In this document: piece by piece, positions 1,785 to 20,505 of the stretch
Position numbering within the stretch: position 1 is the stretch's first letter
Layout: each line of letters opens with the position of its first letter
Source: Gammaproteobacteria bacterium
GTDB lineage: Bacteria > Pseudomonadota > Gammaproteobacteria > UBA9214
Direction of reading: 5' to 3'
Assembly: GCA_029859555.1 (NCBI GenBank)
Contig: JAOUCV010000001.1
Location: 1-22,807 of the forward strand
DNA length: 22,807 bases
Translations under genes and position numbers: made by a program
Notes under the pieces: model-generated
Database searches by the model: none
Seen by the model: the letters and a program-made list of their open reading frames with translations, nothing else
What the model was told of the DNA's origin: nothing

Positions 1785-2396
1785 TTACATATTCATATAT
1801 ACAGCATAATCCTCCGCAGTATCAATATCCTTGCGCACTGTCAGGCATTGCCAGCTCAGCTGCAGTTGCCGCAGGCGTTTTTCTGTTATTTCCAGCACCC
1901 TGTGTGTGCTCCACGGTATCTCTTCAAACAGCGCGGGATGGTAACGGCTCATACCAATCAGGTAGTAGCCACCGTCCTCGGCCGGCCCCAGAACCACATC
2001 ACTGCCCTGCTGCAATGCATGTAACGCTGCGTCGAGATCACCCACAGTCAGCGTCGGGCAATCTGCTCCTATTAATACAACATGATCAGCAAACTGCAGG
2101 GTCGACCGAACAGCCCGAGACATTCTCAGTCCGAGGTTACCACTCACTTGTTGCTGAAGGCCGGTTTCATACTGACTACTGCACTGTCGAAAGAAAGGAT
2201 GATCGGGCGAAGGATCACACCAGATATCAACTGGACAGAGTTTCGCCGAAACGCATGTCGTCAGACATTCATGCACCAGTTTTTCATAAATATCAGCTGC
2301 TGCCTGCATGCCCAGATGCGATCCCAGGCGCGTTTTAACTTTTCCGGGTTCCGGTGCCTTGCTTAGCAACAGCAGCCGAGCTTGCGGATACTTCAC
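1785..2396 (-). CDS. TIGR04282-type arsenosugar glycosyltransferase (DUF2064)
   Basis: A 203-residue nucleotide-diphospho-sugar-transferase-like protein of the DUF2064/TIGR04282 family, repeatedly found with arsenosugar genes. The N-terminal nucleotide-binding signature SKAPEPGKVKTRLG lies at residues 12-25. The acidic VLIGADCPTL loop is in the middle, and the family-typical GPAEDGGYYLIGM follows. The length is normal. The exact donor and acceptor are not established; attachment or modification of the ribose unit is inferred from context. Its ATG overlaps the stop of the upstream glycosyltransferase by four bases (2393-2396, ATGA), implying coupled translation. It is the last gene of the run, and I see no clear terminator between it and the DUF1269 gene. 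Confidence 0.85.
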   Translation of the reverse strand: MKYPQARLLLLSKAPEPGKVKTRLGSHLGMQAAADIYEKLVHECLTTCVSAKLCPVDIWCDPSPDHPFFRQCSSQYETGLQQQVSGNLGLRMSRAVRSTLQFADHVVLIGADCPTLTVGDLDAALHALQQGSDVVLGPAEDGGYYLIGMSRYHPALFEEIPWSTHRVLEITEKRLRQLQLSWQCLTVRKDIDTAEDYAVYMNM

Positions 2397-3100
2397 GAAA
2401 TATCCATCCCGTAGTACTTTTCAAGGCGCTCTGGACTGACGCCGCAGTAGTAAGCAAGGCGTAAGCCCCACATGGTCACAATGGTCCGGGTGATACCGTG
2501 CTTGTTCCAGCGTCTTGCAGAGGTTATCAGTTGCTCGCCAACGCATACCGGGCGTGAAGATGCCTTCAGAGTACGGCTGAAGGCTATATCTTCCATCAGC
2601 GGGATCGAGGGCATACCTCCAATCCGCTGGTACAGTGATCGACGCACAAATATTCCCTGATCGCCAGTGGCGATAGACGTAAGTGATGAGCGCAGATTCA
2701 TCATAAACGCCACGCAGACCAGCATCGGGTGCCGGTCCGACAAAGCGATATCAAACCGTCCCCAGTGTGCGTTGTGGTTTGCAAGCGCATCGAGTATCAG
2801 CTGGTCTGCCTTTTCCGGGACGCCGGTATCTGCATGCAGGAACCAGAATACCGAACCCTTTGCCGCTGCAGCACCAGCACGCATTTGCAAGGCGCGTCCG
2901 CGTGCAGCGCTAATAACCCTGTCAGTCTGCGACTCTGCAATCGCTATTGTCTGATCTGTACTTCCACCATCAACCAGGATCACTTCATGCCCGCGCTGGC
3001 GCAATGGCTGCAAGGCAGCACAAAGTACTCCAACAGAGTCCGCCTCGTTGAGTGCCGGGATGATGACAGAAATTTTTTGTGTGTTAGCAGCAGCCGCCAC
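2393..3100 (-). CDS. TIGR04283-type arsenosugar glycosyltransferase (family 2)
   Basis: A 235-residue GT-A-fold glycosyltransferase of family 2. Visible landmarks are the first beta strand SVIIPALNEADSV (residues 11-23), VDGGSTDQT (43-51) for nucleotide-sugar binding, RGRALQMRAGA (67-77) typical of the TIGR04283 subgroup, and FLHADT (87-92) in the place of the metal-binding DXD. The usual metal-dependent transfer of a sugar from a nucleotide donor is expected, and the arsenosugar role is inherited from the family and its neighbours. The start is GTG at 3100 because no ATG precedes the first strand; it lies inside the end of arsM (17-base overlap) without a strong Shine-Dalgarno, so it probably relies on coupling. 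The stop overlaps the next start by four bases. Confidence 0.85.
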   Translation of the reverse strand: MAAAANTQKISVIIPALNEADSVGVLCAALQPLRQRGHEVILVDGGSTDQTIAIAESQTDRVISAARGRALQMRAGAAAAKGSVFWFLHADTGVPEKADQLILDALANHNAHWGRFDIALSDRHPMLVCVAFMMNLRSSLTSIATGDQGIFVRRSLYQRIGGMPSIPLMEDIAFSRTLKASSRPVCVGEQLITSARRWNKHGITRTIVTMWGLRLAYYCGVSPERLEKYYGMDIS

Positions 3101-4178
3101 TTGTTGCTACCGGAGTGTCAGGCGAGCTGGTAGCGCAACAACCGCTTTCCGCACTTTTTTCGCTTTGTGTTGACAGGTCGATGAAGGCCCCCTTAAAGGC
3201 AGGGTTCATCAGTAATTGCTGTGTATGTTCTGCAATAGTGATACGCTGGCCACGGTTATAGAGGGTGCCGTCCTCGCCAATAACAGCTGCAAAGGGACCC
3301 CGATACATAACGGTCTGGTCGTCTGCCGCGCCGCTGCCCTGTACCGGTTTGACTGCTGTCAGGGTTACCGACCGGAATTCTATACCGGCAATAACCTGCC
3401 AGGGTTCTGTGTCCCATTTGTCATAACAGACAGCACCAAAGCCGGCGCTTGCAAATTCGTCGAGAAATTCATCTTCACGAAAGGCACCCGAGATACAGCC
3501 ACTCCACAGTTCGGGATCGTTTTTCATGTCTTCCGGTACCGGCTGATGGCTGATTATGTCGGAAATGGCTACACGGCCACCCGGTTTCAACACGCGAAAT
3601 ATTTCCCGGATCATTTGTTGTTTCTCGTGGTCTGCCACCAGATTCAGCACACAATTGGAAATCACCAGGTCAACAGACTGGTCCTGTATCAATGGATCCT
3701 CCCTGCGTTGCCTGGCTTCCCATGCTTTCAATTCAGAATAATCACTGTGACTGCTGACTGGATGTGACTCCAGGTAGTTGCTGAGCGTGTCAACACTCAA
3801 GCCAAGATCCTGAATACTGCCTTTTACAAAGCTCACCCGGTCACTGCCAAGCTTCTCTGCCATTTCAGGCTGGTATTTCCGGGCCAGCGCCAGCATGTCG
3901 TCATTCATGTCCACGCCGATCACCTTCCCCTGGTCACCGACGATGCTGGCGGCCATGTAGCAGACCTTGCCACCACCGGAACCAAGATCCAGCACTACGT
4001 CACCCTCTTCTACATAGCGTGAAGGGTCACCGCAACCATAGTCTTTCTCGATGATTTCATCAGGCAGAATGGACAACAGGCTCGCATCATAGGAGACCGG
4101 GCAACACAGTGCCGACTGTTGCTGTTTGGCTCCCTCGGAATATCTGTCAAGGACTGTTTCTTCTACATTCATGGACAT
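3084..4178 (-). CDS. arsM: ArsM-type SAM-dependent arsenite methyltransferase of the arsenosugar set
   Basis: 364 residues, cytoplasmic. Class I SAM methyltransferase motifs are VVLDLGSGGG (61-70), IGVDMN (87-92) and the FRVLKPGGRVAISD region (194-207). Three cysteines sit in the contexts used by ArsM enzymes to bind As(III): Cys49 (YGCGDP), Cys176 (SNCVLN) and Cys228 (WSGCISG). There is also a Cys25-Cys26 pair near the N terminus. A C-terminal extension follows (about 285-364), holding a GPFAAVIGEDGTLYNRGQ-like segment and ending in two Cys-Cys pairs (347-348 and 363-364). The expected reaction is stepwise methylation of arsenite to methyl- and dimethylarsenicals, the precursors of dimethylarsinoyl sugars. 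The ATG at 4178 has AGGAG six bases upstream. It lies 45 bases after arsS and overlaps the next gene. Confidence 0.88.
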   Translation of the reverse strand: MSMNVEETVLDRYSEGAKQQQSALCCPVSYDASLLSILPDEIIEKDYGCGDPSRYVEEGDVVLDLGSGGGKVCYMAASIVGDQGKVIGVDMNDDMLALARKYQPEMAEKLGSDRVSFVKGSIQDLGLSVDTLSNYLESHPVSSHSDYSELKAWEARQRREDPLIQDQSVDLVISNCVLNLVADHEKQQMIREIFRVLKPGGRVAISDIISHQPVPEDMKNDPELWSGCISGAFREDEFLDEFASAGFGAVCYDKWDTEPWQVIAGIEFRSVTLTAVKPVQGSGAADDQTVMYRGPFAAVIGEDGTLYNRGQRITIAEHTQQLLMNPAFKGAFIDLSTQSEKSAESGCCATSSPDTPVATSGGCC

Positions 4179-4223
4179 CTTGGACTCCTGATACTCAAAC
4201 TATTAAATGAACACACTAAGGGT

Positions 4224-5192
4224 TTACGCCTCCAGCGCTCCAGCACAGCCAGAACCCTGTCCGGCGGTGCAGCCATAGCAATGCGCGGCGACCTGAATGC
4301 TATTGCCACGGACGTCAATGCCGGTCAGCTCGGAGATATGCAGTTTCGGTCGGGAATCAACTTGCAGCGGCATATCCAGCATCTGGTTAAAATCACAGTC
4401 ATAGACATACCCCCGCCAGTCGATGCTGAGCAGGGAACGACACATCACAGATGCAGTATTCTCGTCCTTGTGGGCGCTCTTGAGCAGTTTCATGTAGCCG
4501 TCAAATTCACCACGACTGATGAGTGTGCTGCCAAATCGCTGGATTGGCATATTGGTGAGTGTTAGCAGCTGGTTGAACTGTATACCGTACTGCCCGGCGA
4601 GATGCTGCTTGTAGTCCTGCTCCAGGGCCTGTTGCGGGGGTGGAAGTCTTGGCCCCTGTGGATTAAAGACCAGGTCAAGCTGCAGGCCGGAGCCCGGCTG
4701 CGCGTAGCCCAGGCTATTCAGTAGCCGTAACGCCTTCAGGCTGGTTTCAAAGGTTCCATCGCCTCTTTGATTATCAACATTATCTTTTAGATAACAGGGT
4801 AATGAAGCAACCACCTTTACTTTATTCTCGGCCAGGAATGCAGCGGTATGCTCTTGCCCCGGTTCAAACAGGACAGTCAGATTGCAGCGATCAATCACCT
4901 CTATGTCACGCATACGGGCTGCGCTCACAATGGATCTGAACAGCGGGTTAAGCTCTGGCGCACCGCCGGTTAAATCCAGCGTTTTGACTGTTACTGTTGC
5001 ATCTATAAACGCAAACAACGCATCAACTGTATCCTGATTCATCAACTCGGTGCGTTTCGGCCCGGCATTGACATGGCAATGCAGGCAGGACTGATTGCAC
5101 AAATACCCCAGATTGACCTGCAGGGTTTCAAGTGTGACACGCTGGATACCAGGGAAGTCGCTGTACGTCAGTAATGGCAGGGTCGCGTGCAT
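4224..5192 (-). CDS. arsS: Arsenosugar biosynthesis radical SAM protein ArsS
   Basis: 322 residues. The radical SAM cluster motif C-x3-C-x2-C is Cys32, Cys36, Cys39 (CNQSCLHC), followed by LTGGAPELNP (74-83), the SAM-binding GGE-like region with A-P in place of E. The C-terminal third carries Cys251, Cys266, Cys305, Cys308 and Cys316, consistent with an auxiliary iron-sulfur cluster. It matches the ArsS/TIGR04167 family, proposed to join the 5'-deoxyadenosyl group of SAM to dimethylarsinous acid to build the arsenosugar skeleton. It starts 22 bases after the MerA-like gene with a weak CGGA ribosome site and is followed 45 bases later by arsM. Family assignment is strong; the detailed chemistry is from the family. 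Confidence 0.9.
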   Translation of the reverse strand: MHATLPLLTYSDFPGIQRVTLETLQVNLGYLCNQSCLHCHVNAGPKRTELMNQDTVDALFAFIDATVTVKTLDLTGGAPELNPLFRSIVSAARMRDIEVIDRCNLTVLFEPGQEHTAAFLAENKVKVVASLPCYLKDNVDNQRGDGTFETSLKALRLLNSLGYAQPGSGLQLDLVFNPQGPRLPPPQQALEQDYKQHLAGQYGIQFNQLLTLTNMPIQRFGSTLISRGEFDGYMKLLKSAHKDENTASVMCRSLLSIDWRGYVYDCDFNQMLDMPLQVDSRPKLHISELTGIDVRGNSIQVAAHCYGCTAGQGSGCAGALEA

Positions 5193-5214
5193 GGATAATT
5201 CCGTTATCGTCAGC

Positions 5215-6630
5215 TCAGGGTATCAGGCGATTTAACAGCCACACCAGTGAGCGTACTTTTTTTGATTGTAACAAGCCGGCATAGCTTGCATTAATTGTGC
5301 GGCGATTAATTTGCGCATAACTCGGGTAGGCGTGCACCAGTCTGGACAGGGTCTTGGCTTTTGCATTGACCTGCATGGCCAGTGCCAGCTCATGAATCAG
5401 CTCACCTGCATGCGCGCCAATCAGGCTTGCTCCTAGAATGCGACCCTTGCTGATCAGTATTCTGGCCACTCCCGCAGCAGCATCGTCTGTAATGGCGCGA
5501 TCGATATCGGCCATGGGAAACTCGACAAGTTGATGTTTTATCCCCTGCTCCAGCGCCTGCTTTTCAGAGATACCAACCGAGGCCACTTCCGGGTCCGTGT
5601 AAACAACTCGCGGGATGACCCGGTAGTCTGTTTTTGCGGGAATACGAAACATAATGTTGGCAAGAATAATACCTGCCTGGTATTCAGCTGTGTGTGTGAA
5701 CTGGTAGTGACCACAAACATCACCTGCCGCATAAATATGTTTTTGCGTGGTACGCAGACGCCGATCTACGGTTATACCCTTGCGGTTAAATTCAACCCCT
5801 GCCGCTTCCAGGCCCAACCCGTGCACCACAGGCTGCCTGCCGGTGGCAACAAGAATCCGGTCACAATCGACCGTTGCGTGACTGGAAAGCCTTAATTGTC
5901 TGGCATCTCCCTCCCTGTGTATGCCCGCCACCTGGGCCGCCGTTATGATTTCTACACCTTCTTCTTCAAGTGCTGCCTGCAGCTGCCTTGAAATGGCTTC
6001 GTCTTCATTAATCAGCAAACGATCGGCCATTTCAATGATCGTTACGCGACTGCCCAAACGTGCAAACGCCTGCGCCAGTTCCACGCCGATCGGTCCCCCG
6101 CCAATGATAGCGAGATGATGCGGCAGAGTCCGTCGCATGAAGATTGTTTCGTTGGTGTCGAACCCGGCCTGTTCCAGCAGTGGTATCGGCGGAATAGATG
6201 GCATCGAACCGGTTGCTATTACAAAACGTTTGCCGGTTATTGTTTGGTCGTTTACCGAGATCTCGTGCTTGCCGGTAAATTGCGCTGTTCCAAAAATGAC
6301 ATCACAGCCATAGCTGCGGAAGCGTTCCGGGTCATCATGTAGCTGGATGGTTTCCCTGACCCGGTTCACATGATCGATCGCCTTGCCAAAATCTATATCC
6401 GGCATGGTGGACAGGAGTCCCTGTGCAACCCCGTTGCGCGCAGTATGGGCAGTGCGCGCCATATGAATGAGTGCCTTGCTGGGTACACAGCCCGCATGCA
6501 GGCAGTCGCCGCCGAGGAGCGGTGTTTTTTCTACCAGGGTAACCTTCAGGCCTGCTTGCGCAGCCACGCTGGCGACTACCAGCCCGCCAGGGCCGCCACC
6601 GATAACAACCAGGTCCTGACGCTTTGTCAT
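5215..6630 (-). CDS. MerA-like FAD-dependent pyridine-nucleotide disulfide oxidoreductase
   Basis: 471 residues. FAD-binding GGGPGG lies at 11-16, the redox-active pair Cys43/Cys48 in GGDCLHAGCVPSK, a second Rossmann motif (IIGGGPIGVELA), and the ATG/AAGDV flavin motif (YAAGDVCG). A C-terminal dimerisation domain follows. It belongs to the mercuric-reductase/dihydrolipoamide-dehydrogenase family, but the C terminus (ending LNRLIP) lacks the vicinal Cys-Cys of true MerA, and the segment aligned to the His-Pro-Thr...Glu catalytic motif reads YPSYAQ. I therefore do not call it MerA. I chose the ATG at 6630 (AGGA seven bases upstream) rather than a longer frame reaching 6909, because the flavin motif starts there and it forms an ATGA overlap with the TVP38 stop. 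Similar proteins are commonly paired with TVP38 proteins. Confidence 0.85.
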   Translation of the reverse strand: MTKRQDLVVIGGGPGGLVVASVAAQAGLKVTLVEKTPLLGGDCLHAGCVPSKALIHMARTAHTARNGVAQGLLSTMPDIDFGKAIDHVNRVRETIQLHDDPERFRSYGCDVIFGTAQFTGKHEISVNDQTITGKRFVIATGSMPSIPPIPLLEQAGFDTNETIFMRRTLPHHLAIIGGGPIGVELAQAFARLGSRVTIIEMADRLLINEDEAISRQLQAALEEEGVEIITAAQVAGIHREGDARQLRLSSHATVDCDRILVATGRQPVVHGLGLEAAGVEFNRKGITVDRRLRTTQKHIYAAGDVCGHYQFTHTAEYQAGIILANIMFRIPAKTDYRVIPRVVYTDPEVASVGISEKQALEQGIKHQLVEFPMADIDRAITDDAAAGVARILISKGRILGASLIGAHAGELIHELALAMQVNAKAKTLSRLVHAYPSYAQINRRTINASYAGLLQSKKVRSLVWLLNRLIP

Positions 6631-7283
6631 GATTGCTTCCTGCGCCGTTTCATCAAGATGCGCGATGCAAACGCAATGGTTGCAATGACGGCAAGCGCCA
6701 GTAATGCCTTCCTGATAAAGTCTTCCCCGCCACTGGCGACTTCCCGGCCGGCATAACCCAGATAGGTATAGGCGGCGCCTCCGGGAGCCATAAAAACAAA
6801 CGAGGTAATGACGTAATGCGAGAGACGAAGTCGCGTCAGTCCGAGCGCATAATTCAGCAGGTTGAACGGAAACAGTGGCACCAGGCGGGCAAAGGCAACA
6901 AAACGCCAACCCTCCTCCTCTACACCTTCTACCAGTTGCCGCAAACGGTTACCGGTACGCTCTGCTACCCAGTCGTAGGCAATATAGCGGGCCGTCAGGA
7001 AAGCAAGTGTGGCACCGAGTGTCGCTCCTGCAAGATTATAAAGTGTCCCATAGACCGGACCGAACAATACGCCTCCGGCGAGGGTAAACAGTATACCGGG
7101 CATAAAAAAAACCGTAGCAACAGCGTAACAGGCTATGAATACCAGCGGTGCGTACCAGCCGAGCGCACTAACACTGGCTGCCAGTGATTCCACAGAAACC
7201 TGGTCGCGCAACAGAATGGCGATAACAATACCGGATGCAAGCAGCAGCAAAAAAATAACGCGTCTGCGGGCATCAGCTGCCAT
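6627..7283 (-). CDS. TVP38/TMEM64 (DedA-superfamily) membrane protein
   Basis: 218 residues with about six hydrophobic segments. The first is near residues 8-25 (VIFLLLLASGIVIAILL). The SNARE-associated/VTT core includes FMPGILFTLAGGVLFGP (about 59-75) and the late re-entrant motif FARLVPLFPFNLLNYALG (about 133-150). Basic residues (MKRRRKQS) close the C terminus on the cytoplasmic side. Relatives in this superfamily move or scramble lipids across membranes. It overlaps the upstream desaturase by 11 bases and the downstream MerA-like gene by four (ATGA), so the membrane protein and the oxidoreductase are probably made in fixed proportion. Transport of an arsenic compound or lipid is inference. 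Confidence 0.87.
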   Translation of the reverse strand: MAADARRRVIFLLLLASGIVIAILLRDQVSVESLAASVSALGWYAPLVFIACYAVATVFFMPGILFTLAGGVLFGPVYGTLYNLAGATLGATLAFLTARYIAYDWVAERTGNRLRQLVEGVEEEGWRFVAFARLVPLFPFNLLNYALGLTRLRLSHYVITSFVFMAPGGAAYTYLGYAGREVASGGEDFIRKALLALAVIATIAFASRILMKRRRKQS

Positions 7284-8127
7284 TACTATTCCACTTGCGG
7301 CGATTTATGGCGTAATCAGTGACTTTTCCCCAAAAGGGCATCAGTAATAGCCGATGCAGGGGTATGCATTGTTTGCTGTCGCGAAAGGTGTCTATGCCTA
7401 TCACCATATTTTCATGTCCGTCATCCGGTTGTGCGCGATAGGTGCCAAACAGATGGTCCCATAGCGACAGGTTGAAGCCGAAATTGCTATTGGTCTCGTG
7501 AGCATAATGCGAATGATGCACCCGGTGCATATCCGGTGTAACGATAAATATGCGCAACAGTCGGTCAAGCCCCAGGGGCAGACGCGCATTACTGTGATTA
7601 AACATCGAGGTTGCATTCAGCAATACCTCGAAAATCACGACGGCCGCCAGCGGCGGCCCCAGCAGCAGGATTGCGGCAAACTTGATCAGCATGGACAGTA
7701 GTATTTCTATGGTGTGAAAACGGGCCCCGGTAGTGACATCAAAATCCATATCAGCATGGTGAACCCGGTGCAGTCGCCAGAAGGCAGGTACTGCGTGAAA
7801 CATGACATGCTGCATATAAATCAATCCATCAAGCAAAATCACAGAGATAATCACCGCTAACCATGCAGGACTGTTTAGCTGATTAAACAAACCCCATTGC
7901 TGCTCTGTTGCGTAGGCGGCAACGCCAATGGCCGCCGTCGGAAAGACAACGCGCACCACGACAGTGTTGACAATGACGAGCGCGATATTATTTATCCAGC
8001 GAGCCGACTTCGACTGCGTCAGAACGCGGCGTGGCGCCAGCAGCTCCCAGAGTGCCATGACAGAAAATATACCGAAGAAAAATCCCAGGCGGATGGCGGT
8101 CTCGTATGTGGCAATAAAATTATCCAT
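7273..8127 (-). CDS. Sterol desaturase / fatty acid hydroxylase family membrane di-iron enzyme
   Basis: 284 residues. Hydrophobic helices occupy about 12-30, 45-72, 88-105 and 144-172. The di-iron histidine clusters are complete: H107-x3-H111, H120-x2-HH124, H178 and H201-x2-HH205, plus a late His225. The family oxidises C-H bonds of lipids (hydroxylation, desaturation, ether-lipid cleavage) at the membrane face. The substrate cannot be read from the sequence. Its ATG lies inside the end of dusA (8-base overlap) with AAGAG upstream, and its stop overlaps the TVP38 start. It is thus the first membrane gene of the arsenosugar run. A lipid-tailoring step for an arsenolipid is possible but untested; an unrelated housekeeping lipid role is the alternative. 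Confidence 0.85.
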   Translation of the reverse strand: MDNFIATYETAIRLGFFFGIFSVMALWELLAPRRVLTQSKSARWINNIALVIVNTVVVRVVFPTAAIGVAAYATEQQWGLFNQLNSPAWLAVIISVILLDGLIYMQHVMFHAVPAFWRLHRVHHADMDFDVTTGARFHTIEILLSMLIKFAAILLLGPPLAAVVIFEVLLNATSMFNHSNARLPLGLDRLLRIFIVTPDMHRVHHSHYAHETNSNFGFNLSLWDHLFGTYRAQPDDGHENMVIGIDTFRDSKQCIPLHRLLLMPFWGKVTDYAINRRKWNSNGS

Positions 8128-9142
8128 GGCTCTTATTGTAACTTTTGCTCGATGTGTCTGTGCTGGCTGCTATGGTACGCCTCTCCAGTGCCTCCAGGAC
8201 AACCTCTGTTCCGGCTGTTGAAGACGGTGCATTCTCGCTTAAATAGCGCCGCCAGTGGCGTGCGCCAGGCATTCCCTGGTACAGCCCCAGCATATGCCGG
8301 CTGATATGTTTGAGTAGTGTTCCCTGTTTCAGTTCCCTTTCAATGTAGGGAATCATGCCGAGAACGATATCATCACGATCGGGGATCGGGTGTGAATCGT
8401 TAAAGATCTGCCTGTCGGCCTGCGCAAGCACATAGGGATTGTGGTAGGCAGCACGACCGAGCATGATGCCATCTACCCTCTGCAAATGTGCCTCGGCCTC
8501 GTCAAGGCGTTCTATGCCACCATTCAGGATAATGACAAGATCGGGAAACAATTGCTTGATGCGATAGGCAAAATCATAGTTAAGTGGCGGGACGGTGCGG
8601 TTTTCCCTGGGACTTAGTCCCTGCAGATAGGCCTTGCGCGCATGAATAATGAAAGTCTTGCAACCTGCAGCCCGAACGCAGCCGATAAAATGCGCGAGCT
8701 CATCAAAAGAATCGCGGTCATCTATACCGATGCGCGTCTTTACAGTGACAGGCACTGACACTGCCGTATTCATCGCGGCAACGCAATCAGCTACCAGCCC
8801 GGGTTCTGCCATCAGGCAGGCACCAAAGCGGCCCGACTGTACCCGGTCACTCGGACAGCCAACATTCAGATTGACTTCGTCATAACCATAATCAGCACCA
8901 ATGTTCGCGCATTCAGCGAGTTCCGCCGGGTTGCTGCCGCCCAACTGCAGTGCCAACGGATGTTCCGCGTCATCATGACCGAGGAATCGCTGCCGGTCGC
9001 CATGTAGCAGCGCGCCCGTTGTGACCATTTCCGTATAGAGCAAGGCGCGCTGTGTCACCAGTCGTAACAGGTAACGACAATGACGATCAGTCCAGTCCAT
9101 CATGGGGGCAATCGAGAGTCGCTGTGCTATTGAATAAGTAAT
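8120..9142 (-). CDS. dusA: tRNA-dihydrouridine synthase A, probably with an ATT start
   Basis: An FMN-dependent enzyme that reduces specific D-loop uridines of tRNA to dihydrouridine using NADPH. Landmarks are APMMDWTDRHCRY at the N terminus, LLYTEMVTTGA, ALQLGGS, NLNVGCPSDRVQSGRFGACLM with the catalytic Cys, VTVKTRIGIDD, FIIHARKA, NGGI, MLGRAAYHNP and GARHWRRYLSEN. The first ATG (9103) would cut off the conserved RLSIAP strand. The frame is open upstream to a stop at 9241-9239 but contains no ATG, GTG or TTG. An ATT at 9142-9140 has CGGAG (9155-9151) eight bases upstream and gives a normal 340-residue protein, so I use it. If the usual start set is insisted on, the gene runs from 9103. It leads the arsenosugar-containing operon. 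Confidence 0.9.
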   Translation of the reverse strand: MTYSIAQRLSIAPMMDWTDRHCRYLLRLVTQRALLYTEMVTTGALLHGDRQRFLGHDDAEHPLALQLGGSNPAELAECANIGADYGYDEVNLNVGCPSDRVQSGRFGACLMAEPGLVADCVAAMNTAVSVPVTVKTRIGIDDRDSFDELAHFIGCVRAAGCKTFIIHARKAYLQGLSPRENRTVPPLNYDFAYRIKQLFPDLVIILNGGIERLDEAEAHLQRVDGIMLGRAAYHNPYVLAQADRQIFNDSHPIPDRDDIVLGMIPYIERELKQGTLLKHISRHMLGLYQGMPGARHWRRYLSENAPSSTAGTEVVLEALERRTIAASTDTSSKSYNKSHG

Positions 9143-11293: not shown

Positions 11294-11959
11294 ATGAAGT
11301 CAGTCAAGACACTTGTTGCAACCTCTATTCTTACCACGTCATTACTTCTTTCTTTTGGCAGTCAGGCAGAAGACAAACCGGCAGTCGGTATAACCCCGGA
11401 CATGACCTCTGTATCTGTTATGCATGACGGCAAGAAGACCTCTATCACGCGTAACCAGGACCAGAAGAACACAGTGAACCCGGCATTTGCGAAGACATCA
11501 CGCAAGTGCCCGCCATTCTGTATCCAGCCAGTTGTACTCGCCCCCGGCGTTGAGACAATTGCAGAAGTCGAAATGCTCGACTACCTGAGTAAAATGAGTG
11601 CTGGCGACACATCAATCATGGTGATTGATTCACGCACACCCGACTGGGTTAAAAAAGGCACTATCCCGGGTTCAGTCAACATCCCATGGACTGCTTTGAA
11701 CCCGGCCAAGGGTGCCGACCCGATTTCGATTGGCGAAATCATGGTTGACAAGTTCGACGTCAAGGAACTCGAGGGTCTTTGGGACTACTCCGGCGCAAAG
11801 ACACTGGTGATGTTCTGTAATGGCATGTGGTGTGGCCAGTCGCCGAATAACATCAAAAATCTTCTCAAGTTTGGCTACCCGGCTGACAAGATCAAGTGGT
11901 ACCGCGGCGGTATGCAGGACTGGGAAATCCTTGGTCTTAGTACGGTAAAAGGCAAATAA
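11294..11959 (+). CDS. Periplasmic rhodanese-domain protein
   Basis: 221 residues with a Sec signal peptide (about 1-25, cleaved after SQA). An N-terminal segment carries the pair Cys72/Cys76 (KCPPFCIQP), and a rhodanese domain occupies about 85-216. Domain markers are VIDSRTPDWVKKGTIPGSVNIPW (110-132), the active-site loop beginning at Cys175 (CNGMWCGQSP, with a second Cys180) and WYRGGMQDW (202-210). The catalytic cysteine should carry a persulfide and pass sulfur to an acceptor; the periplasmic location points to handling of external sulfur compounds or redox repair. AAGGAG lies at 11280-11285. A strong terminator 23 bases after the stop closes the unit. The extra cysteine pair and the two-Cys active loop are unusual for a simple rhodanese. 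Confidence 0.85.
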   Translation: MKSVKTLVATSILTTSLLLSFGSQAEDKPAVGITPDMTSVSVMHDGKKTSITRNQDQKNTVNPAFAKTSRKCPPFCIQPVVLAPGVETIAEVEMLDYLSKMSAGDTSIMVIDSRTPDWVKKGTIPGSVNIPWTALNPAKGADPISIGEIMVDKFDVKELEGLWDYSGAKTLVMFCNGMWCGQSPNNIKNLLKFGYPADKIKWYRGGMQDWEILGLSTVKGK

Positions 11960-12057: not shown

Positions 12058-12098
12058 GCAATACACCTTGTGTGAATTGTTCAATTTGGGGGGAAATT

Positions 12099-12617
12099 AT
12101 GTATTTCAGAAAAATTACGGCCATCACCATGCTGGCTTTTTTCAGCCTGGCAGCAGCTGCGGCTGATGATGCCGCCCGAACCGTCATGACGCCCTACAAT
12201 GAGCCAAACGTCGTTTACGATTTCTACTTTGATGAACCTGCAAAGATAAACAGCGCCCTCTACTGGATTCGCTCGCTGATGAATCCGTTAATCGAACAAC
12301 CCTACAACATGGCGCCTGAATTCATGAATATCAAGGTGGTGATACACGGCACCGAAATTGTGACTGTTGCGCGAAAAAACTACGAAAAATACAAGGATGC
12401 AGTAGAGCGAATGCGCTATTACGCCAGTCTTGGCGTTGAATTCAAGGTCTGCGGGATCGCCGCTCATGACTACGGCTATACGGTTACGGATTTTCAGGAA
12501 TTTATCGAGGTTGTGCCTTCAGCCATCAATGAACTGGCACACTGGCAACTGCAAGGCTATGCATTGATCACCCCGACAGCGATGGAAAAGAAATTTGCTA
12601 TTGAGGAAATTCGCTAG
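12099..12617 (+). CDS. Secreted DsrE-family protein
   Basis: 172 residues. A signal peptide (MYFRKITAITMLAFFSLAAAAA) is followed by a DsrE/DsrF-like alpha/beta domain. Landmarks are VVYDFYFDEPAKINSALYWI (38-57, first strand and helix), IKVVIHGTEIVTV (78-90), and FKVCGIAAHDYG (115-126) with the single conserved cysteine Cys118. DsrE-like cysteines carry and transfer sulfur. Cleavage of the signal would place it in the periplasm, as with the rhodanese upstream, from which it is separated by a terminator and its own promoter region. The start is ATG 12099 with GGGGGG just upstream; an upstream in-frame start (12072) would spoil the signal peptide. The sulfur relay with the rhodanese is inferred from location and family. 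Confidence 0.8.
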   Translation: MYFRKITAITMLAFFSLAAAAADDAARTVMTPYNEPNVVYDFYFDEPAKINSALYWIRSLMNPLIEQPYNMAPEFMNIKVVIHGTEIVTVARKNYEKYKDAVERMRYYASLGVEFKVCGIAAHDYGYTVTDFQEFIEVVPSAINELAHWQLQGYALITPTAMEKKFAIEEIR

Positions 12618-19755: not shown

Positions 19756-20505
19756 CTATAGCGGATGCGTGTCCGCCAATGTTTCCGTGAGCACCGATCT
19801 AACATCAGCCATACCCTCATGCAACGCCGTTTCAATAGCCTGCATTACGATCGGTCCGGCTTCCCGCCCGGCTGCATAATTGACAGACAGCGCAATGACG
19901 GCATAACACAGCCCCAGTTCACGCGCGATAGACGCCTCCGGCATGCCGGTCATACCGACAATATGGCAGCCATCCCTGTCCATCCTGTCTATTTCGGCTG
20001 CCGTTTCCAGCCGCGGCCCCTGGGTAGCGCCATAGGTAACATCAGTACTTGCAGCAACGCCGGCTTTTACAGAAGCAGCTATTAACTGCTGGCGCAATGG
20101 TTCGCAATAGGGTTCGGTAAAATCAATGTGTGCTGCAAAATCACTGGCATCCTCGTAGATGCTGTGTCGCCGGGAATGGGTGTAATCGATCAACTGGTCA
20201 GGAATGCTGAGACTCCCGGGTGACATGTCCGCACGGATACCGCCTACGGCACACACGGCAATTACCTGCGTGGCCCCTGCCTGCTGCAGTGCAGCAAGAT
20301 TGGCACAGTAATTTACCTTGTGCGGCAGAATACTGTGATCGTCGCCATGGCGGGCGAGAAAGATGACCTGCTTGCCGGCATAGCTGCCATATGTGAGCGC
20401 ACTGGAGGGTTCACCATAGAGTGTCTCCACGCGCTTGCGATGTGCAATTACAAGCCCGTCGAGCTTATCCAGTCCACTGCCGCCGATAATACCTGTCACT
20501 GACAT
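19756..20505 (-). CDS. S-methyl-5'-thioinosine phosphorylase
   Basis: 249 residues of the purine nucleoside phosphorylase / MTA phosphorylase family. Landmarks are GIIGGSGLDKL (5-15, phosphate loop), ARHGDDHSILPHKVNY (51-66), AVGGIRADMSPGSL (86-99), QGPRLETAAEI (162-172), GMTGMPEASIARE (184-196) and ALSVNYAAG (205-213). Asn209 stands where adenine-specific MTA phosphorylases carry Asp, which favours a 6-oxopurine (inosine-type) base. The expected reaction cleaves methylthioinosine to hypoxanthine and methylthioribose-1-phosphate, as described for the Pseudomonas enzyme that lies beside nagZ. It starts six bases after the hypoxanthine phosphoribosyltransferase stop, so the released base can be reused at once. 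An MTA phosphorylase with ordinary adenine use is the alternative. Confidence 0.85.
   Translation of the reverse strand: MSVTGIIGGSGLDKLDGLVIAHRKRVETLYGEPSSALTYGSYAGKQVIFLARHGDDHSILPHKVNYCANLAALQQAGATQVIAVCAVGGIRADMSPGSLSIPDQLIDYTHSRRHSIYEDASDFAAHIDFTEPYCEPLRQQLIAASVKAGVAASTDVTYGATQGPRLETAAEIDRMDRDGCHIVGMTGMPEASIARELGLCYAVIALSVNYAAGREAGPIVMQAIETALHEGMADVRSVLTETLADTHPL

Follow-up and report, generated by a model that had tools for sequence, protein, structure and literature searches.

Membrane and redox genes as recurrent partners of the arsenosugar gene arsS in Gammaproteobacteria

What might three membrane and redox genes be doing at the head of an arsenosugar gene set? The question is raised by a 22,807-nucleotide stretch of DNA from a gammaproteobacterium of the UBA9214 lineage (assembly GCA_029859555.1, contig JAOUCV010000001.1, positions 1 to 22,807; the window hereafter). 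On its minus strand, the genes for the radical SAM enzyme ArsS (4224..5192), an ArsM-like methyltransferase and the TIGR04283 and TIGR04282 proteins follow those for a PF04116 membrane di-iron hydroxylase (FAH, 7273..8127), a TVP38/VTT membrane protein of the DedA superfamily (TVP, 6627..7283) and a flavin disulfide oxidoreductase (MerL, 5215..6630). The original prediction, made from the DNA letters, had read this arrangement as arsenosugar genes locked into one operon with three genes of a possible arsenolipid pathway. We found that FAH, TVP and MerL accompany ArsS repeatedly and beyond chance; an arsenolipid product of the locus is plausible.

Two sets of loci were used, namely the 80 contigs with the most similar ArsS sequences (the close set) and a non-random survey of 100 loci from 99 genomes, hand-picked from listed ArsS places, mostly one per family, and drawn from the 183 ArsS-positive genomes among 369 of the class. 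Judged by ArsS sequence, three loci belong to both sets (L006/L134, L069/L148 and L077/L164). The genomes are partly draft, and survey loci shortened by contig ends were still counted in the 100. Forty random regions from 30 of the surveyed genomes, out of 41 places drawn, served as a control, and each search had a single E-value threshold. Within 9.75 kb of arsS, direct search of the survey loci found TVP in 35 (at a threshold of 50 bits, low enough to let in remote VTT proteins, among them a PLD-VTT protein at locus L117), FAH in 26 and MerL in 23, together with TIGR04283 and TIGR04282 in 71 each, ArsM in 34 and the tRNA-dihydrouridine synthase gene dusA in one. The random regions held none of TVP, FAH or MerL and one dusA (Fisher p 1.7e-6, 6.8e-5, 2.6e-4 and 0.49, respectively). 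At least one of the three lay near arsS in 43 of the 100 loci, and all three in 11. A survey of this kind had been proposed along with the original prediction, and with linkage at 43 survey loci and in none of the random regions, these families are not rare companions of arsS. Open reading frames of both sets were also clustered without labels, and in the 100 survey loci the same genes made up the six most frequent neighbour families (TIGR04283 69, TIGR04282 62, ArsM 34, TVP 27, FAH 26, MerL 26). The clustering broke ArsS up into groups of one member each, presumably because of the resolution setting; its remaining counts are in line with those found by direct search.

The order of genes varies among these loci. 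The full series dusA-FAH-TVP-MerL-ArsS-ArsM-TIGR04283-TIGR04282 was seen in L006/L134 (one contig), L008, L009 and L010, all of them near ArsS relatives, and elsewhere the orders FAH-TVP-ArsS, MerL-ArsS and ArsS-MerL occur, with FAH placed between the TIGR04283 and TIGR04282 genes in four loci (L135, L159, L168 and L197). A FastTree phylogeny of ArsS was built from 180 rows of the close set and the survey; for L020 no ArsS frame was retained. Counted as the fewest possible changes, with short loci scored as unknown, branch support disregarded and no comparison with shuffles, linkage to ArsS changed 26 times for TVP, 25 for MerL, 24 for ArsM, 19 for FAH and once for dusA. Since this repeated linking and unlinking resembles that of ArsM, the pattern for TVP, MerL and FAH is the one expected of functional partners, and dusA appears as a bystander. 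We accordingly set dusA aside as a pathway member, given its single change on the tree, its presence in one of 100 survey loci and its position as a neighbour in one lineage only.

The association extends beyond gene neighbourhoods to presence and absence in whole genomes. ArsS was found in 183 of the 369 sampled genomes, the FAH profile (A1) was positive in 176 and the MerL profile (A2) in 182, with ccoG (191) and menA (26) as controls. ArsS and FAH occurred together in 148 genomes, ArsS alone in 35, FAH alone in 28 and neither in 158, giving an odds ratio of 23.9; the corresponding counts for MerL were 138, 45, 44 and 142, with an odds ratio of 9.9, compared with 2.1 for ccoG and 1.2 for menA. 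Split by ccoG, the ArsS-FAH odds ratio was 22.5. Within-family (Mantel-Haenszel) odds ratios, which cover 86 families and 230 of the 369 genomes because genomes negative in all lists had no family label, were 16.5 for FAH (p 7e-6) and 7.7 for MerL (p 0.0016), against 2.0 for ccoG (p 0.86) and 3.3 for menA (p 0.43). As both profiles were built from ArsS-linked sequences and so lean towards ArsS-positive genomes, the counts were repeated without the genomes that contributed to them, which left 20.0 for FAH (13.3 within families, p 2e-4) and 8.8 for MerL (7.5, p 0.002). When genomes with FAH listed near ArsS were removed as well, the FAH value was 17.7 (9.8 within families, p 0.003). FAH, MerL or both were present in 177 of the 183 ArsS-positive genomes and in 54 of the 186 ArsS-negative ones. 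For FAH and MerL, the proposed co-occurrence thus holds genome-wide, both families following arsS in presence and absence.

In the window, eight minus-strand genes run head to tail from 9.1 to 1.8 kb, with neighbouring genes overlapping by at most 17 bases or lying at most 45 bases apart. The three genes upstream of arsS are all there with the overlaps attributed to them (FAH/TVP 11 bases, TVP/MerL 4), and overlaps also occur between dusA and FAH (8 bases), ArsM and TIGR04283 (17) and TIGR04283 and TIGR04282 (4). The idea of a single overlapping set applies within FAH, TVP and MerL and stops at arsS, which follows MerL after a gap of 22 bases; ArsS and ArsM are separated by 45. Likewise, the predicted extent up to position 9142 does enclose the arsenosugar set and the three genes and also takes in dusA (8120..9103, or to 9142; DusA model 509.8 bits, cut-off 269), which had gone unnamed. 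The first ATG, GTG or TTG of the dusA frame is at 9103 and the frame continues upstream to an in-frame ATT at 9142, which points to a rare start codon or else to an error in the assembly. To call the genes locked into one operon is too strong: of the 110 hydroxylase places listed for genomes that also have a listed arsS place, 74 have no arsS on their contig within 15 kb.

Three of the four core genes are over curated cut-offs for an arsenosugar locus: ArsS with 440.7 bits (TIGR04167, cut-off 300), the TIGR04283 glycosyltransferase (2393..3100, minus) with 272 bits (cut-off 182) and the TIGR04282 glycosyltransferase/nucleotidyltransferase-like protein (1785..2396, minus) with 204 bits (cut-off 134). 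The ArsM-like arsenite methyltransferase (3084..4178, minus) passes none of the NCBIfam ArsM cut-offs shown, its best model being NF040538 (353.9 bits, cut-off 500), and it lies outside the curated arsenosugar subfamily NF038099 (123.4 vs 400 bits); it does align to solved ArsM structures (4kw7, E 2.5e-33). After TIGR04282 comes a glycine-rich hydrophobic protein of 183 residues (1154-1705, minus) without a Pfam or NCBIfam match, which matches 14 of 14 members of a neighbour family (f17) placed after TIGR04282 in 14 loci. A phosphate transporter of the PHO4 type (family f39, e.g. L184:8268-9353) occurs in eight loci and in seven of them stands directly upstream of arsS, where it could possibly take up arsenate or an organoarsenical phosphate. 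The window also encodes a PF01048 phosphorylase-superfamily protein (19756-20505, minus) next to a phosphoribosyltransferase. As a purine nucleoside phosphorylase it was considered for removing adenine from the ArsS product and was discarded, being more than 10 kb away, behind mfd.

FAH belongs to the PF04116 superfamily by its gathering score (93.9 bits, cut-off 31) and by ten intact histidines (107, 111, 120, 123, 124, 138, 178, 201, 204 and 205), which are conserved without exception in an alignment of 30 sequences made up of the window protein and 29 of the 35 FAH proteins found. The nearest known hydroxylases that can be named are the ornithine-lipid hydroxylase OlsE, whose cut-off the window protein misses, and the yeast sphingolipid hydroxylase Scs7p. 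A Foldseek search with the predicted FAH model gave no match at E <= 0.001, nor did FAH match any solved structure. Protein searches with the FAH profile returned at least 7999 candidates, and names such as 'sterol desaturase family protein' occur among the matches listed. In 14 of 35 FAH loci, a regulator with an ArsR-type helix-turn-helix and a rhodanese domain lies beside FAH on the opposite strand, reading divergently from it (e.g. L182:15247-15990 and 13 further loci), and this is the case in 4 of the 5 FAH loci inspected at places away from ArsS. In the window's own genome, contig C458 ends in a fragment of such a regulator.

TVP scores 86.4 bits against PF09335 (cut-off 33.9) and is thereby a member of the VTT/DedA superfamily, whose proteins are multi-copy, with five in the window's own genome. 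A comparison of TVP with solved structures gave a single row at chance level. In 41 of 180 loci TVP and MerL are fused in one protein, these being 41 of the 47 MerL-labelled proteins of more than 600 residues; the TVP match was found in 41 MerL proteins, and the fusion scanned in locus L036 carries PF07992 and PF02852. A predicted model of a TVP-MerL fusion (pLDDT 82.9, pTM 0.71) was set aside because its domain arrangement was too unsure. Three proteins of 321-349 residues were scanned as well, and in each of them TVP is joined to a rhodanese domain. Some close-set loci (L061, L022, L041 and similar), mostly labelled Burkholderiales or Betaproteobacteria, share a larger conserved cluster that in L061 runs arsS, an SSF-like transporter (below the Pfam cut-off), a 330-residue protein of no assigned family, a TVP-MerL fusion, DUF547, TIGR04283, TIGR04282, DUF3047 and a Rieske oxygenase. 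In the window, a rhodanese protein (11294-11959) and a DsrE-family protein (12072-12617) are adjacent on the plus strand, 2-3 kb from the cluster; both families also occur in FAH/TVP loci of relatives.

Class I flavin disulfide oxidoreductases are characterized by a CxxxxC redox disulfide and a C-terminal catalytic histidine, and the mercuric reductase MerA has in addition a C-terminal vicinal cysteine pair. MerL has the class I features: domain scans, made on a longer frame (5215-6909), identified PF07992 and PF02852, and C43, C48 and H433 are kept in 73 of 73 sequences. The acidic partner is E in 44 and Q in 29 of the 73, with Q in the window. MerL and MerA thus share their superfamily and redox motif; however, MerL falls below the mercuric reductase cut-off TIGR02053 (376.3 vs 454.45), and no cysteine pair (CC or CxC) occurs within the final 20 residues of any of the 73. 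On these grounds mercuric reductase was rejected as its identity, and the proposal that the oxidoreductase sets the arsenic redox state, which leaned on the MerA name, gets no backing from the active site, though direct action on arsenic is conceivable. For the same reasons a thiol or disulfide is the likelier substrate of MerL, judging from its residues. Of the earlier interpretation, what stands is that the three genes are recurrent neighbours of arsS; direct arsenic redox by the oxidoreductase and a 'locked' operon are unsupported.

A comparable arrangement may exist in Synechocystis sp. PCC 6803, in which we take slr0304 to be ArsS. According to the papers cited here, ArsM of this organism is slr0303 (PMC4010505; likewise among PMC7345539, PMC8787705, PMC13077682, PMC8801600 and PMC4284471), slr0304 is listed as a hypothetical protein (PMC3516471) and slr0305 is a TVP38/DedA homologue (PMC3836016, PMC13174344). 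As slr0303 and slr0305 are two numbers apart, this fits a TVP38 gene beside ArsM and ArsS outside Proteobacteria. ArsS with ArsM performs the initial arsenosugar steps in Synechocystis (PMC8552651), arsenic being adenosylated by ArsS (PMC12159101, which cites, by title, Xue 2014 on arsenolipid biosynthesis by Synechocystis). The two systems are alike in having an ArsS over the curated cut-off, an adjoining ArsM-type methyltransferase and a TVP38 homologue, nearby by gene number in Synechocystis; in contrast, the window adds the hydroxylase and a separate flavin disulfide oxidoreductase, and its ArsM is outside NF038099. In a survey of DedA proteins, the COG0398 subfamily is described as putative phospholipid flippases, tied to aerobic metabolism and missing acidic re-entrant residues, with pyridine nucleotide-disulfide oxidoreductase as their most frequent fusion partner, and rhodanese fusions are noted in COG0586 (PMC10127716). 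The VTT domain and the fusion partners (PF07992 with PF02852; rhodanese) are the same as in our loci, whereas the excerpted text of that survey does not contain 'arsen' and such proteins adjoin ArsS here. The lipid handling that the original prediction ascribed to the DedA superfamily is backed by this description for one subfamily. The window TVP belongs to the VTT superfamily at large, and its close relatives include rhodanese fusions of the kind noted in COG0586. No report of a partnership between FAH, TVP or MerL and arsS was found in the portions of the open-licence PubMed Central literature covered.

How might these proteins work together? As reported for the Synechocystis enzymes, ArsM would methylate arsenite and ArsS would add a 5'-deoxyadenosyl group, after which the TIGR04283 and TIGR04282 proteins may process the sugar. 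The arsenosugar product or a lipid form of it would then be handled at the inner membrane, where TVP, of a scramblase-type family, could bind or move a lipid-linked substrate. MerL, docked on or fused to TVP, would spend NAD(P)H through its C43-C48 disulfide and so keep a dithiol or a thiol-bound arsenical reduced, and FAH, with O2 and two iron atoms, might hydroxylate the lipid or aglycone part. The end product would likely be a lipid-linked or lipid-modified arsenosugar, which is favoured because a lipid-type hydroxylase and a scramblase-type membrane protein are present. Our tentative first choice, to which we give a little less than an even chance, is therefore that the three proteins form an arm of arsenosugar or arsenolipid synthesis that is bound to the membrane and depends on oxygen and NAD(P)H. 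The narrower proposal that FAH and the TVP38-flavoenzyme pair are the membrane arm of arsenosugar-lipid synthesis, with the DedA-oxidoreductase fusions serving arsenosugar or arsenolipid handling, is possible and distinctly more doubtful.

The main rival, on the whole unlikely, is that these proteins give thiol or sulfur redox support instead of making lipids: MerL and the variant partners (TVP-rhodanese, DsrE, multihaem cytochromes) would maintain thiols and trivalent methylated arsenicals in reduced form for ArsM and ArsS and also process persulfides, with TVP as a membrane anchor and FAH as a parallel oxygenase. Rhodanese, DsrE and cytochrome partners favour this explanation, as do the invariant C43, C48 and H433 and absent metal-binding tail of MerL, in keeping with a thiol-disulfide enzyme, the three TVP-rhodanese fusions and the ArsR-rhodanese regulator beside FAH, including at most of the FAH loci inspected away from ArsS. 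However, the strongest link with ArsS (odds ratio 24) is that of FAH, a lipid-type hydroxylase that thiol support leaves without a role, and one DedA subfamily consists of putative phospholipid flippases (PMC10127716). Aerobic aquatic Gammaproteobacteria might alternatively keep both arsenosugar genes and membrane-lipid oxygenases as a matter of shared lifestyle, with no joint function, which we regard as improbable. Both traits are indeed patchy and lineage-dependent, 74 of the 110 listed FAH places are away from ArsS and COG0398 proteins are tied to aerobic metabolism (PMC10127716), but the association persists within families (16.5, or 13.3 without profile genomes) and when split by ccoG (22.5), the controls show little, and the physical linkage seen at 43 survey loci and in no random region would be left unexplained. 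An accident of operon structure, with arsenosugar genes inserted behind dusA and unrelated membrane genes in a single lineage, is very improbable indeed: a housekeeping gene, dusA, does head the cluster and has ArsS nearby at 12 of the 80 loci in the close set, yet its link changes once on the tree compared with 19-26 times for TVP, FAH and MerL, which the random regions lack in 40 of 40.

Several observations weigh against a membrane arm of arsenosugar or arsenolipid synthesis. To our knowledge, none of these organisms has a known product. FAH is missing from 35 and MerL from 45 of the 183 ArsS-positive genomes, and ArsS-negative genomes carry FAH in 28 cases and MerL in 44. In genomes with a listed ArsS, 36 of 110 listed FAH places are within 15 kb on the same contig and 74 are not, although in draft genomes a separate contig does not prove distance, and FAH is rare among the loci nearest by ArsS sequence (9 of 80). 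Across independent supported tree pairs, TVP linkage was not significantly associated with FAH linkage (median p 0.5 with 7 pairs) or with MerL linkage (median p 0.06 with 8 pairs), comparisons of little power. FAH is far below the OlsE cut-off (NF052566, 94.1 vs 475 bits), and neither an acyltransferase nor a phosphatidyltransferase is among the commonest annotated neighbour families, part of the families being annotated. Rhodanese domains are present in relatives of TVP, and DsrE proteins, multihaem cytochromes and the ArsR-rhodanese regulator are encoded at FAH loci, a setting that suits sulfur or thiol redox. In Synechocystis, moreover, arsM is not arsenic-induced (PMC4010505), and relatives of slr0305 are tied to thylakoids and not to arsenic in the passages available (PMC3836016, PMC13174344).

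With ArsS in 183 of 369 genomes, arsenosugar capacity is common in the class, and in the portion of the literature covered only the first arsenosugar steps, those of ArsM and ArsS, are assigned. FAH and MerL, which follow ArsS within and across bacterial families, are concrete candidates for the steps that finish arsenosugars or arsenolipids. The same association offers a candidate role for the DedA-flavoenzyme fusion proteins, which the DedA survey ties only to aerobic metabolism (PMC10127716).

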